This document shows, in pieces, positions 10,572 to 17,220 of a DNA stretch of 64,000 bases (positions are counted from its first letter, which is position 1; every line of letters begins with the position of its first letter). The position numbers and the translations under genes are program-made. A model generated the notes under the pieces. That model ran no database searches. It was not told the origin of the DNA and saw only the letters and a list, made by a program, of their open reading frames with translations. The stretch comes from Rheinheimera mangrovi (GTDB lineage: Bacteria > Pseudomonadota > Gammaproteobacteria > Enterobacterales > Alteromonadaceae). The DNA lies in assembly GCF_003990335.1 (NCBI RefSeq), contig NZ_CP034683.1, positions 4,509,501 through 4,573,500 of the forward strand. The letters are read 5' to 3'.

Positions 10572-10940
10572 ATGCGCAATTTTTTGCTGTTGTGTTTGCT
10601 TATAGTCAGCGCCCTGACATTTTATGATCACCCACGAGTTCTGCCTTACTCAGAACCTGTACTGGATTGGCTGGCTGAACATATTTCATTGCCGGGCGTT
10701 CAGTCAGATTCAGTGGTCACCCGCAAAATTCAGAAAGCTTTTTATGCCATAGGCCAGGATTACGGCACAGGCCAACAAGAAGCCTTAGCTAAAGCCGCGC
10801 AAGACATCAACAGCCTGCTGCAATTTCGCCGCGACTACTGCCAAAACGGAGATTTTCATCCAGCCTTATTTGGCGACGCCATGCAAAGAGCCTGTGATGT
10901 GTTAAAGCAGTATCCCAAGCTGGAAGAGTTCAGTAAGTAA
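10572..10940 (+). CDS. Small exported or membrane-anchored protein of unknown function
   Basis: 122 residues from an ATG at 10572 with a GGGGTAACAGG leader. An N-terminal hydrophobic stretch (residues 3-17, NFLLLCLLIVSALTF) is a signal peptide or anchor. The rest is soluble and helical, with two Cys (DYCQNGDFHPAL and RACDVLKQYP) that could form a disulfide in the periplasm. Codon use resembles the neighbours. I recognise no family. It is downstream of two palindromes that may control it. Confidence 0.6.
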   Translation: MRNFLLLCLLIVSALTFYDHPRVLPYSEPVLDWLAEHISLPGVQSDSVVTRKIQKAFYAIGQDYGTGQQEALAKAAQDINSLLQFRRDYCQNGDFHPALFGDAMQRACDVLKQYPKLEEFSK

Positions 10941-11069
10941 AGAACTGATTGCTTTCAGTTTTTATGGCGCAAGTGTGCGCCCAATACAGTGGCAATATCC
11001 GTACCAGCAAGCACCCACATCAGGAACAACTCTGCATGCGCTCATTAGAAACAAAAGTTATGAACTAAG

Positions 11070-11139
11070 GACTAAAAGCCTGCCGATTTCGGATTGGCAA
11101 ATCATCCATCTATGCCTTGGCTTACAATGCCTTTTAGTC
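11070..11139. repeat. Inverted repeat GACTAAAAG / CTTTTAGTC with 52-base loop
   Basis: Perfect 9-bp arms at 11070-11078 and 11131-11139. The enclosed sequence has smaller self-complementary parts (TGCC..GGCA). It lies downstream of the microcin-like operon on its strand and could be a 3' structure or the relic of an element; no function is shown. Confidence 0.35.
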
Positions 11140-11223
11140 AAATAATTGGCTGGCATTCAAAGGTTCAGCTTCAAAGTCGATGAGCTCATGTTGCACTCAA
11201 AATCAACCAATAATAAAAAACAC

Positions 11224-11337
11224 TCAACCAAATAATTGTTGAATCATTATTTGCAAGCCTATGCCTATTGCAAGACCGAAACAGATACCTACCAGCATAC
11301 TGCGTTTACAGAGTCTAAATTTTGCTTGCCAGCTCAT
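11224..11337 (-). CDS. 37-residue single-span membrane peptide next to the microcin-like gene
   Basis: ATG at 11337 with GGGAG seven bases upstream (one of the best ribosome sites in the window); TGA at 11224-11226. The product has a basic N terminus (MSWQAKFRLCKRSM) followed by a hydrophobic glycine-rich helix (LVGICFGLAIGIGLQIMI) and ends QQLFG. The charge pattern predicts an N-in single membrane span. It lies 62 bases after the double-glycine peptide gene on the same strand. Position and size fit an immunity peptide or a partner peptide, but there is no homology evidence. The strong ribosome site is the main reason to call it real. Confidence 0.55.
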   Translation of the reverse strand: MSWQAKFRLCKRSMLVGICFGLAIGIGLQIMIQQLFG

Positions 11338-11399
11338 TTTATCACTCCCGATTGTTGCTCATGCGAGAGGGCGCATCCATGATGCGCCCGACGAAGCTA

Positions 11400-11600
11400 C
11401 TAATCTAAACGGCTCGATATATATGATACGGTCAACCCGATACTGACACCAATCATGGCAATAGGAAACCATGCAGGAGCAGAACCAGCCACCGCAATAC
11501 CAACACCTATTCCAACTATGCTCAAATTGCCGCCAATTGCCAGATCTTGAGATACTCCACCACTAACTTCTTCCACTTGCTCCAATGTTAACTCTTTCAT
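11400..11600 (-). CDS. Double-glycine-leader peptide, putative class II microcin/bacteriocin precursor
   Basis: 66 residues, ATG at 11600 with AAGGAT eight bases upstream. Residues 1-15 (MKELTLEQVEEVSGG) match the GG-leader consensus, M-x-E-L at the start, alternating acidic/hydrophobic residues and V-S-G-G at the cleavage site. The predicted 51-residue core begins VSQDL and is hydrophobic and rich in Gly, with two GxxxG motifs (GIGVG, GVSIG), a Pro-Trp-Phe-Pro turn and a polar tail (YISSRLD). Such peptides are cleaved and exported by C39-peptidase ABC transporters; none is encoded in this window. Antimicrobial activity is inferred only. Alternative: a GG-leader peptide with a signalling role. 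Confidence 0.72.
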   Translation of the reverse strand: MKELTLEQVEEVSGGVSQDLAIGGNLSIVGIGVGIAVAGSAPAWFPIAMIGVSIGLTVSYISSRLD

Positions 11601-11937
11601 GATTTATATCCTTGAGTTAATTAAAGCCTGACAAGCAGGCTTCTGACAAACCAAAACAACCTCGTTTTGGCTCCTTATCTGCGCTATTCAACTCATGTGC
11701 GACGACAATGGACTAAATGACCGCAAGCGCGGATTCATTAAACACTCAACAAATTAACATTGAAATAATCATAATTTAACAAAAGTGAATCACAAGGCCA
11801 AATCAGCCTTGATGCAAAAATGAGACTTAGTGAATTGATCAATAAAGAAATTTAGTTTTGCAGATTGAAAGCATCTGAATGCCAGTCGTAGACAACAAAC
11901 TGGGGCTCTGTGGCCCCTGTTTGTTCAATGATAAAAC
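11601..11937. other. AT-rich leader and intergenic region of the microcin-like gene
   Basis: 337 bases between purT and the GG-leader gene. On the leader side there are two hairpins: AAGCCTG-ACAAG-CAGGCTT (11624-11642), about 12-15 bases upstream of the ribosome site, and CCAAAAC-AACCTC-GTTTTGG (11651-11670). A third small dyad AAGGC-CAAATCA-GCCTT lies near 11800. The stretch 11735-11870 is clearly more AT-rich than flanking genes. No ORF with a ribosome site was found. Confidence 0.45.
11894..11925 (-). terminator. Probable terminator of purT
   Basis: Long imperfect stem AACAAACTGGGGC / GCCCCTGTTTGTT (one mismatch) with a TCTGT-size loop, 13 bases past the purT stop. It ends in GTTTGTTG rather than a full T-run, so termination may be moderate or bidirectional. 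Confidence 0.6.
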
Positions 11938-13122
11938 CTACAACACATCCACTTTAATTTTGGCGATCACATCCAGTGCTTTTTGTTTGGCGTGATCGAT
12001 GTTGTCGCCTAAAGCTAAAGCCACACCCATACGGCGTTCGCCTTGCACTTCGGGTTTGCCAAACAGCCGCAGGTCGGTGTCGGGTTGCATTAATGCCTGA
12101 GCTAAGTTGCCATAGCCAATTTGATCCGAGTTGCCCGGAACCAGCAATACAGCTGAAGCGGCCGGGCCGTATTGGCGAATAAGCGGAATAGGTAAACCTA
12201 AAATAGCGCGGGCATGCAACGCAAATTCGGAATAGTTTTGTGAAATTAAGGTCACCATGCCGGTGTCGTGTGGCCGGGGTGATACTTCGCTAAACCAGAC
12301 CTCGTCGCCCTTCACAAAAAGCTCGACGCCAAATAAACCAAAACCACCTAAAGCTTCTGTCACTTTAGCGGCGTAATGTTGGGCTTTTTCTAAAGCAACA
12401 GCAGACATGGCCTGAGGTTGCCATGATTCGCGGTAATCACCTTTTTCCTGACGATGGCCGACTGGTTCGCAGTACTGAGTGCCGGACACAGAGCGCACTG
12501 TCAGCAAAGTGATTTCGTAATCGAAGTCGATAAACCCCTCAACTATCACCCGGCCTTTACCGGCACGGCCGCCTTCTTGTGCATAAGCCCAGGCGCTTTC
12601 TAAATCGGCGTCGGATTTCAGTACAGACTGGCCCTTGCCCGAGGACGACATAATAGGTTTCACCACACAAGGGTAACCAATATGCGCCACTGCGGCTAAG
12701 TAGCTGGCTTTGTCATCGGCAAAACGGAAAGGCGAAGTTGGCAGTTGTAACTCTTCAGCTGCTAAACGGCGGATCCCCTCGCGATTCATAGTTAAATTGG
12801 CTGCTTTGGCGCTAGGGATCACAGTAAAACCCTGTTGCTCCAGCTCAACCAAAGTGCTGGTCGCTATAGCTTCCAGTTCAGGCACTATCAGCGCAGGTTT
12901 TTCTTTGATCACAATTTGGCGCAAGGTGGCACCATCCAGCATAGAAATCACGTAACGACGATCAGCCACCTGCATCGCAGGTGCATTGGCGTAACGGTCG
13001 ACTGCTATCACTTCGCAGCCTAAACGTTTGAGTTCAATACATACTTCTTTACCGAGTTCACCACTGCCTAATAACAGTACTTTGGTGGCGTTGGCCGCGC
13101 CCGGGGTTCCTATCTGGCTCAT
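11938..13122 (-). CDS. purT: Formate-dependent phosphoribosylglycinamide formyltransferase PurT
   Basis: 394 residues, normal length. ATP-grasp enzyme that makes formyl-GAR from GAR, formate and ATP, the folate-independent third step of purine synthesis. Seen: N-terminal pre-ATP-grasp domain ([29 protein letters not shown]), ATP-binding [35 protein letters not shown], and the metal-binding [14 protein letters not shown] segment. Transcribed alone; a hairpin follows it. No PUR box was identified. Confidence 0.97.
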
Positions 13123-16002: not shown

Positions 16003-16726
16003 CTAAACCCACCTCGGTTTTTTCGTATAACACATCTTGTTCAGACCAGCTCAGGTTGTACAACAGGCTCCAGTCGCTGGCAAAAGAGAATTGGCCAAAT
16101 AAGCCGATGCGGGTGACATCCATCACTAATACACGGTTAGGTAAACGTTCCAATTCTTTACCTTTCACCAGCAAGGCAGTGAGTGAATCCGTATCGTTAA
16201 AGTAATAACTGGCTTGCAGCACATGAGTATTGGCTGAGCCCGTATCTTCAGGTCTGGAGTGATACAAGGTATACGCATAACGCCATGAACCACTGTAATG
16301 TTCGTTCATCAGGCTATAGCTGCGGCTGTCCTGTTGATCATCATTGGAAACAGATACCCCAGGCGTTACAACCCAGCCCTTAGTCCATTGCCAGGCCAAC
16401 TGACTGCCTATCGAGAGTTCAGGCCGCACTCGGTTTTGAGGGCTATAAGCGGCTTGTCCCAACCAGGTCAGGTTGTCACTGATTTTATAATAACCATCCG
16501 TCAGCCATTCCTGGTCCTTTAAGTCAAAACGCTTGCTGCGCTGCCAGCGAGCTCCCCACCCATAATCTGTAGCTGCATGGCGTAATCCGGCATAATAAAA
16601 TGAGCCATCGGCAAAACTGTCCGACAGTTGCTCATAACCTGCCCCTGTTTCCAGTTGATAACTTTCCGCTGCCACACAAATCAGTGGCGCTAAAGCAGCC
16701 AGCCCTAAAACTAAGCTTTTGATCAT
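15983..16726 (-). CDS. YaiO family outer membrane beta-barrel protein
   Basis: 247 residues. Signal peptide 1-19 (LVLGLAALAPLICVAA), then about a dozen amphipathic beta strands ending in the outer-membrane signature VGLGVRYRL. Pattern matches YaiO barrels (YYKISDNLTWLGQAAYSPQNRVRPELSIGSQLAWQW). Probably the outer-membrane exit or a binding protein for the polymer made by the adjacent synthase. The ATG at 16726 overlaps the receiver gene stop by four bases (ATGA). Confidence 0.82.
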   Translation of the reverse strand: MIKSLVLGLAALAPLICVAAESYQLETGAGYEQLSDSFADGSFYYAGLRHAATDYGWGARWQRSKRFDLKDQEWLTDGYYKISDNLTWLGQAAYSPQNRVRPELSIGSQLAWQWTKGWVVTPGVSVSNDDQQDSRSYSLMNEHYSGSWRYAYTLYHSRPEDTGSANTHVLQASYYFNDTDSLTALLVKGKELERLPNRVLVMDVTRIGLFGQFSFASDWSLLYNLSWSEQDVLYEKTEVGLGVRYRL

Positions 16727-17103
16727 CCTTGCTTTCCTATAAGACGACGCAAACGAGCACTTAGCTCAGGTGGCTGAAATGGTTTAACCAAATAATCATC
16801 TGCACCTTTTTTCAGAGCAAGAGCTATATCTTCTTCACCCATTTTGGACGTCAGAATTAATACGGGTACTGTTGCCATAGCGGCTTGATTGCGGATCAAC
16901 TCCAGTAAAAACAAACCATCAAAAAAGGGCAGCATTAAATCCAGCACCACAGCATTAAAATCGCGACCAGACAACACAAGTTCCTGAGCCTGCTGGCCAT
17001 CTTTAAGCCACTCCACCTGATAACCATCACGTTGCAAAATAAAAACTAACAACTTGCCGATCAGCTCATCATCTTCAACCAGCAATACAGTTTTAGTGCC
17101 CAT
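16723..17103 (-). CDS. Single-domain response regulator (receiver only)
   Basis: 126 residues from the ATG at 17103 with GGAG six bases upstream. Complete receiver: acidic pair in LLVEDDEL, phosphoacceptor Asp55 in VVLDLMLP, Thr in LILTSK and Lys in YLVKPFQPPE; no output domain. First gene of the receiver-YaiO-HEAT-GT2 operon, so it probably acts by protein contact on export or synthesis. No histidine kinase gene is adjacent; the orphan kinase at 22109 is one candidate in the window, without direct evidence. Confidence 0.88.
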   Translation of the reverse strand: MGTKTVLLVEDDELIGKLLVFILQRDGYQVEWLKDGQQAQELVLSGRDFNAVVLDLMLPFFDGLFLLELIRNQAAMATVPVLILTSKMGEEDIALALKKGADDYLVKPFQPPELSARLRRLIGKQG

Positions 17104-17220
17104 CAATACTCCGCAGATCCAGCTGTCCTGACAAGCTTCTTAAGCTAATTCGCCCACTTGTTCAAGTTGTAGTGAAAAAAAACATAGCTGCAGACCATAA
17201 ATCAGGGATCTGCATTGCAT

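Follow-up and report, generated by a model that had tools for sequence, protein, structure and literature searches.

A probable class II bacteriocin cassette with a 37-residue putative immunity protein at an exchange site downstream of purT in Rheinheimera mangrovi

What is the function of two very small genes located between purT and a conserved gene for a 122-aa protein in Rheinheimera mangrovi, and how is their presence at this site to be understood? The window, i.e., the whole stretch of DNA that was analysed, comprises 64,000 nucleotides of a 4.63 Mb genome available as one contig (G000); the named close relatives are R. soli (G001) and R. faecalis (G016). An earlier note, made from the letters of the window, had read the locus as a class II microcin precursor with a tiny membrane-peptide neighbour, and its description of the two genes proved accurate: a 66-aa product with a GG leader, a 51-residue hydrophobic core and two GxxxG motifs is encoded, as is a 37-codon frame with a GGGAG site and one membrane stretch (Table 1). 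The precursor begins with MKELTLEQVEEVSGG, and its core (5.0 kDa, average mass about 5014.8 Da if unmodified, GRAVY 1.15) is strongly hydrophobic, with exactly two GxxxG motifs in the precursor, at residues 30 and 51. The 37-aa ORF, which is separated from the precursor ORF by 62 bases, contains one hydrophobic stretch (best 17-mer Kyte-Doolittle value 2.25). Class II microcins of the microcin V type combine a GG leader, a small membrane immunity protein encoded next to the precursor, and an HlyD protein with a C39 ABC exporter. From the sequence comparisons described below we consider it quite probable that the pair represents a cassette of the class II bacteriocin/microcin type (unmodified, GG-leader), lying at an exchange site, the core of which would be exported by a C39 exporter and kill close relatives, with the 37-aa protein protecting the producer.

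Table 1. Positions within the window of the genes and sites at the purT locus
Feature	Position	Strand	Basis or remark
66-aa GG-leader precursor ORF, bacteriocin-type	11400..11600	-	sequence, family matches, PF10439 below cut-off
Precursor parts: leader; core; stop	11600-11556; 11555-11403; 11402-11400	-	
37-aa single-helix membrane protein, putative immunity protein	11224..11337	-	partner recurrence, dN/dS, orphan homologue in G009
GGGAG ribosome-binding site of the 37-aa ORF	11345..11349	-	sequence
AAGGA ribosome-binding site of the precursor	11609..11613	-	inside AACTCAAGGA, common to five aligned purT-site cassettes
Promoter-like site TTGTGA-16-TATGAT	11768..11795	-	stretch partly conserved in five purT-site cassettes
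Intercistronic hairpin, perfect 9-bp stem, GGGCGCATC-ATG-GATGCGCCC	11369..11389	-	sequence, folds
Whole cassette, about 1,005 bases	10928..11932	.	DNA comparison; G021 has 72 unaligned bases instead
purT, conserved left flank of the docking site	11938..13122	-	sequence search, domains
122-aa conserved gene, right flank of the docking site	10572..10940	+	without Pfam match

A protein search with the precursor returned 11 clusters, one of which (P0001) is near-identical and possibly the window's own; the E values of the other ten ranged from 1.5e-27 to 4.2e-10. Where a cluster has a genus name, it is Pseudoalteromonas, Psychrosphaera or Paraglaciecola. At E<=0.001, matches were found in 10 of 196 genomes (the window's own and relatives; six at E<1e-18, the window's included), in 20 of 395 from the taxonomic family (13 with E<1e-7) and in 3 of the 394 genomes sampled from the order, and in the class sample, at E<=1e-6, one genome of 369 matched, namely G000 itself. 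Plasmid matches were confined to one record, from the alphaproteobacterium Phyllobacterium zundukense, where a precursor 59% identical to that of the window is followed by HlyD and C39 ABC genes about 3 kb and 4 kb downstream, respectively. The alignment, read by eye, gave a conserved core of approximately AIGxNxxIVxIGxGIxxAG(S/AT)AP(A/V)WFPxxMIxVS. The argument of the earlier note from a GG leader combined with GxxxG motifs holds in its first half: the leader is of GG type in all 15 aligned rows (P0008 has GA), so that its loss in relatives, named there as a sign against the proposal, is not observed. The second half carries little weight, since the family does not keep the strict GxxxG motifs.

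Known bacteriocin models recognise the precursor faintly. It scores 17.6 of 27.1 bits with PF10439 and 18.5 of 21.5 bits with TIGR03949, in both cases under the curated cut-off; among 17 family members, PF10439 matched 10 at E<=0.1 (best 3.7e-6) and MccV gave a weak match in six (best E 0.042). The search of solved structures returned two chance-level matches, one of them a bacteriocin leader; the leader region of the carnobacteriocin B2 precursor (PDB 1ry3) was matched at E 0.64, with the core unmatched. The predicted structure, of middling confidence (mean pLDDT 71), has a short leader helix followed by helices at residues 18-38 and 44-65. The precursor ORF and its leader are under purifying selection; comparison of the peptide with that of R. 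soli gave dN 0.08 and dS 0.78.

The earlier note had proposed that the 66-aa and 37-aa genes be sought together in related genomes, and a small hydrophobic ORF (28-60 aa, start within 200 bases) was found downstream of the precursor in 12 of 14 homologue loci, vs. 11 of 208 control stops (5.3%; stops of ORFs of at least 150 codons in stretches of at least 10 kb, some overlapping). The 14 loci come from 12 of the 13 genomes that reached E<1e-7 in the family search, from G132 and from the Phyllobacterium plasmid; eleven weaker matches of that search (E 1.3e-5 to 8.4e-4) lie outside the set, as does G016, because its contig stops inside the gene, the 37-aa homologue of this genome being found at the end of another contig. 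The 12 partner-bearing loci represent 8 genera, with four of the 12 from one genus, and include L113, in which the precursor frame is misread and the ORF is nonetheless the partner known from L015. A partner is missing at L118, whose core is the weakest in the set; beside the Phyllobacterium homologue (L109:4980-5436), near two-component genes, stands a membrane ORF of another kind, 49 aa long.

Seven aligned partners have in common a Trp residue, a basic N-terminus with a net charge of +4 to +6 and a hydrophobic helix at the C-terminal end; the alignment omits L079 and L115-L117 (one genus), whose partners look alike in design. Outside the genus the partners are 14-36% identical to that of the window, a diversity that leaves common descent likely and no more than that, and no NCBIfam family matched any of the seven at E<=0.1. 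Among four Rheinheimera copies of the 37-aa gene, the variable columns, out of 37, number 14 at the first codon position, 4 at the second and 25 at the third, and comparison with R. soli gave dN 0.13 and dS 1.08. The recurrence, the codon-position pattern and the excess of dS over dN together led us to reject a chance frame and indicate that the ORF is very probably a translated and selected protein. The conservation of the 37-codon frame, on which the earlier proposal depended, is thereby borne out.

A hairpin lies between precursor and partner genes in 11 of 12 loci, the window included (folds read by eye), and the same proportion of loci gave a negative z-score for the region against single-base shuffles (-1.5 to -5.4); the exception, L112, has a z-score of +1.0 and a gap of just 33 bases. 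The stem in R. soli is identical to that of the window, and the remaining loci use other sequences; the loci are not all independent, because several come from one genus. A possible role of the hairpin is to fix the proportion of precursor to partner. Taken as a consensus match alone, the promoter-like site of Table 1 is not above chance (4 in the region vs. 2.8 expected). Rfam at E<=1 gave no RNA family at the locus. An origin as a phage or anti-phage defence element was also considered and was dropped, since PHROGs and PADLOC at E<=1 and phage records at E<=0.01 returned no match.

The earlier note had found no C39 exporter in the window and had suggested that one, with an HlyD gene, be looked for elsewhere in the genome. 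Both points hold: the only C39 domain detected in G000 sits outside the window and belongs to an ABC exporter of 704 aa, intact and with C39, membrane and ATPase domains, whose gene is preceded by one for a HlyD protein of 434 aa. On a circular chromosome, these genes would be about 175 kb away from the cassette. With a profile of varied precursors, the window precursor was the sole credible GG match in G000; two further matches (E 0.4 and 0.7), with internal stops, were set aside as chance. With one C39 exporter and one credible precursor, G000 thus has one exporter and one recognisable cargo, which are unlinked. The same separation of precursor and exporter occurs in G016, G009, G004 and G006. 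In R. soli, G077 and Paraglaciecola sp. HlyD and C39 genes adjoin the pair, an arrangement that is probably the older one; no HlyD or C39 ABC match was found within 12-20 kb around the pair in Psychrosphaera (L014), G132 (L045) and G064 (L046). The three exporter-linked loci (R. soli, G077 and Paraglaciecola sp.), together with an orphan homologue of the 37-aa gene in G009 described below, strengthen the bacteriocin interpretation of the earlier note, which the analysis largely bears out. Across the genus a C39 domain is present in 19 of 22 genomes, and the three without it (G007, G017, G019) all belong to the group in which no purT-site cassette was seen.

Between HlyD and the C39 ABC gene of G000 there is a 105-aa membrane ORF (L038:9942-10259, contig G000:C1) that is 31-37% identical to the 101- and 102-aa neighbours of precursors in G013 and G015. 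No precursor was seen between the two exporter genes of G000, where G015 and G013 have a GG precursor, and the 105-aa ORF is likely an orphan immunity gene.

The pair of the window is one among several alternative cassettes downstream of purT. This gene is present in all 22 genomes of the genus that were searched and is at least 95% identical to that of the window in 12 of them; in 9 of these 12 close genomes GG-type precursors are found downstream of purT, mostly with other cores. Precursors of the window family occupy the site in G000, G016 and G001, the last of which additionally has another precursor and an exporter there. Other cores are present in G004, G006, G002, G009 and G011, and G015 has other precursors about 3 kb past purT, with the right flank outside what was checked; each other core has its own neighbour ORF. 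No GG precursor precedes the 122-aa gene in G021 (about 64 bases), G013 and G008. In the remaining 10 genomes, whose purT is 78-82% identical, there is no GG leader within 1.5 kb, and purT is followed by a ParA-like gene (named by eye). A second docking site (L153-L174) follows what by eye is a GMC-oxidoreductase gene. It is filled in 6 of the 12 close genomes (G011, G013, G015, G016, G021 and G009), and no precursor was seen there in G000, G001, G002, G004 and G006; the frame escaped the scripted search for this site in G005, G007, G008, G009, G014 and G020, six genomes out of 22.

Where the cassettes can be aligned, their similarity ends at a characteristic point. In four other cassettes the DNA similarity to the window stops within 17 bases of the leader/core junction: counted on the reversed strand, in which the border is base 1567, it ends at 1550 (G009), 1563 (G004), 1571 (G006) and 1566 (the first precursor of R. 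soli). The alignment of five cassettes (G000, G016, G009, G004 and G006) has conserved upstream blocks and the ribosome-binding site in common. In G002, G011 and G015 the similarity search showed nothing past the end of purT; common upstream and leader DNA is therefore not general to all cassettes.

The precursor proteins, too, are mosaic. Seven other-core precursors (six from Rheinheimera and one, with 10 of 15, from another genus, G088) keep 10-13 of the 15 leader residues of the window precursor and, in the core, just 5-13 of 29-45. Twelve distant members of the window family, six of them from other genera (P0007-P0009, G132, G064 and G077) and six of unknown source, keep 26-37 of 44-45 core residues and just 4-9 of 15 in the leader. 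Thus in Rheinheimera precursors the leader is common and the core varies; in distant homologues the core is common and the leader varies. The account we favour from this mosaic is that core and immunity gene move and the resident leader stays, and homologous recombination in the common upstream/leader stretch would be the mechanism. A less favoured account, which could also produce the pattern, is that leaders drift with the exporter of each genus and the core is held by its target. A wider proposal, to which we give an even chance, is of an exchange system with the leader/core junction as a module border. Core and tiny immunity protein would cross genera, perhaps classes, and on arrival would use the promoter, ribosome-binding site and leader of the recipient at fixed docking sites (after purT and after the GMC-oxidoreductase gene), so that any cargo would suit the resident exporter in trans. 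Immunity genes would pile up from past exchanges, and the 37-aa helix may pair with the helix of the peptide.

The function of the 37-aa protein is best approached through genomes in which it lacks its usual companion. A profile of the partner alone, run on 147 genomes, matched 36 at E<=0.1 and just 7 at E<1e-5; the precursor occurs in six of these as well. In the remaining one, G009, the purT site carries an intact homologue of the 37-aa gene, adjoining a different precursor (DRGDAVAGG...) and its 91-aa neighbour. No precursor of the window family was found in G009 by the searches of the relatives, with the genus profile and of the family. A mirror image is present in the named relatives: R. 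soli encodes a relative, 85 aa long, of the 91-aa proteins that adjoin DRGAV-type precursors (identity of 72% with that of G002 and 52% with that of G009), and R. faecalis has the start of a similar protein, in both cases placed after the 37-aa gene of the genome itself, and the profile of varied precursors found no DRGAV-type precursor in either. At the second site of G021, the genome's own 91-aa neighbour is followed by a protein of 97 aa with 96% identity to the neighbour of the precursor located there in G016. Stacked spare immunity genes would explain both the orphan partners and these mirror-image neighbours, for which the alternatives seem to account less easily. Because the homologue of G009 stands without its cognate peptide, beside a different precursor, an immunity protein appears to be the best reading of the 37-aa product.

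In the mechanism that we propose, the 66-aa precursor would be synthesised in the cytoplasm, cleaved after GG by the sole C39-peptidase ABC exporter, and its 51-aa hydrophobic core exported by this protein with the HlyD adaptor. The core, probably a helical hairpin, would enter the inner membrane of close relatives and damage it. In the producer the 37-aa protein, with its basic N-terminus inside and one helix spanning the inner membrane, would block the peptide there. At the exchange site between purT and the 122-aa gene, other strains would bear other pairs of core and immunity gene, with a similar leader and upstream region in front of several of these.

The same genes could serve other ends. 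C39 exporters export signals as well, and an exported core acting as a pheromone, with the 37-aa protein aiding its secretion or sensing, would agree with the hybrid sensor kinase and response regulator that adjoin the Phyllobacterium homologue and with the unusual conservation of the core in distant homologues. However, no kinase was seen by eye beside the pair in the Rheinheimera loci that were read, the nearest response-regulator-like ORF lies about 5 kb off, past purT (16723-17106), and the core is long and strongly hydrophobic. Moreover, one site takes alternative cassettes that differ in core and in neighbour ORF, which fits toxin-immunity pairs and not one signal, and the partner persists without its peptide in G009, so that a signalling role seems unlikely to us. 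The absence of the peptide from that genome also speaks against the idea, which we hold to be very improbable, that the 37-aa protein is itself the second peptide of a two-peptide class IIb bacteriocin or a small toxin. The 37-aa protein shares its short length, hydrophobicity and abundance of small residues with many small toxic peptides, and the precursor resembles the class IIb model TIGR03949, although below its cut-off. Yet none of the seven aligned partners has a GG leader, therefore the C39 exporter is not expected to take the protein, and its basic N-terminus and C-terminal membrane helix are kept.

A further possibility is that the pair is a silent relic which is not exported, the exporter having lost its own precursor. 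The gene order of the exporter operon would agree with such a loss: HlyD is followed directly by the immunity-like 105-aa ORF and then by the ABC gene, at the place where G015 and G013 retain a precursor. Against it stand the purifying selection on both ORFs and on the leader, the intact exporter ORFs with matches to the C39, membrane and ATPase domains and to HlyD, and the recurrence of the same separation in four other genomes; we find this reading hard to credit.

If the pair is a bacteriocin cassette, how does it compare with systems already described? It resembles the microcin V type in the GG leader, the short hydrophobic Gly/Ala-rich core, the adjacent small membrane protein and the HlyD and C39 ABC exporter, and differs in that it has no strong family match, a one-helix putative immunity protein of 37 aa, an exporter that is unlinked in the window genome, and cassettes that alternate at a chromosomal site. 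The leader and the overall design recall PF10439 (Bacteriocin_IIc) and TIGR03949 (class IIb, lactobin A/cerein 7B), but the scores of the window precursor stay under both cut-offs and its conserved AP(A/V)WFP core is its own. As to class, there is a small precursor with a GG-type leader, and a C39-peptidase ABC exporter with HlyD in the genome, as in class II; a second GG-leader peptide next to the first, as in two-peptide class IIb, is not found, the 37-aa neighbour having no leader. Streptococcal blp pneumocin loci carry alternative bacteriocin and immunity genes at one locus, with one exporter and spare immunity genes. In all these respects the Rheinheimera arrangement appears similar; unlike in that system, the host is Gram-negative, small cassettes are placed at two separate sites, and the similarity among several of them stops at the leader/core junction.

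The locus would add a precursor family to the GG-leader bacteriocins with C39 exporters, for which we know of no studied example in these gammaproteobacteria. The strains form a natural series, alike in exporter type and leader, unlike in core and immunity gene, in which the relatives with an empty site are candidate targets, and immunity specificity and the killing of kin are directly testable. To our knowledge the 37-aa protein, if it is an immunity protein, would rank among the smallest of bacteriocin immunity proteins, and a single helix of this length would offer a very simple system for the question of how immunity blocks a membrane-active peptide.

Some minor observations concern the surroundings of the cassettes and exporters. 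In the R. soli island a second copy of the 3' end of purT, 93 bases long (L043:9611-9703), is followed by a remnant of the 3' end of HlyD, as though by insertion or duplication of the exporter island at this place. A small Cys-rich membrane protein of about 100 aa (zinc-ribbon-like, by eye) is encoded near purT-site cassettes, at L043:11106-11414, in L022 (G006) and in L019 (G004). Finally, on contig G015:C8 (L106, L107, L050) at least five short GG-leader ORFs lie in a row directly upstream of a C39 exporter gene.
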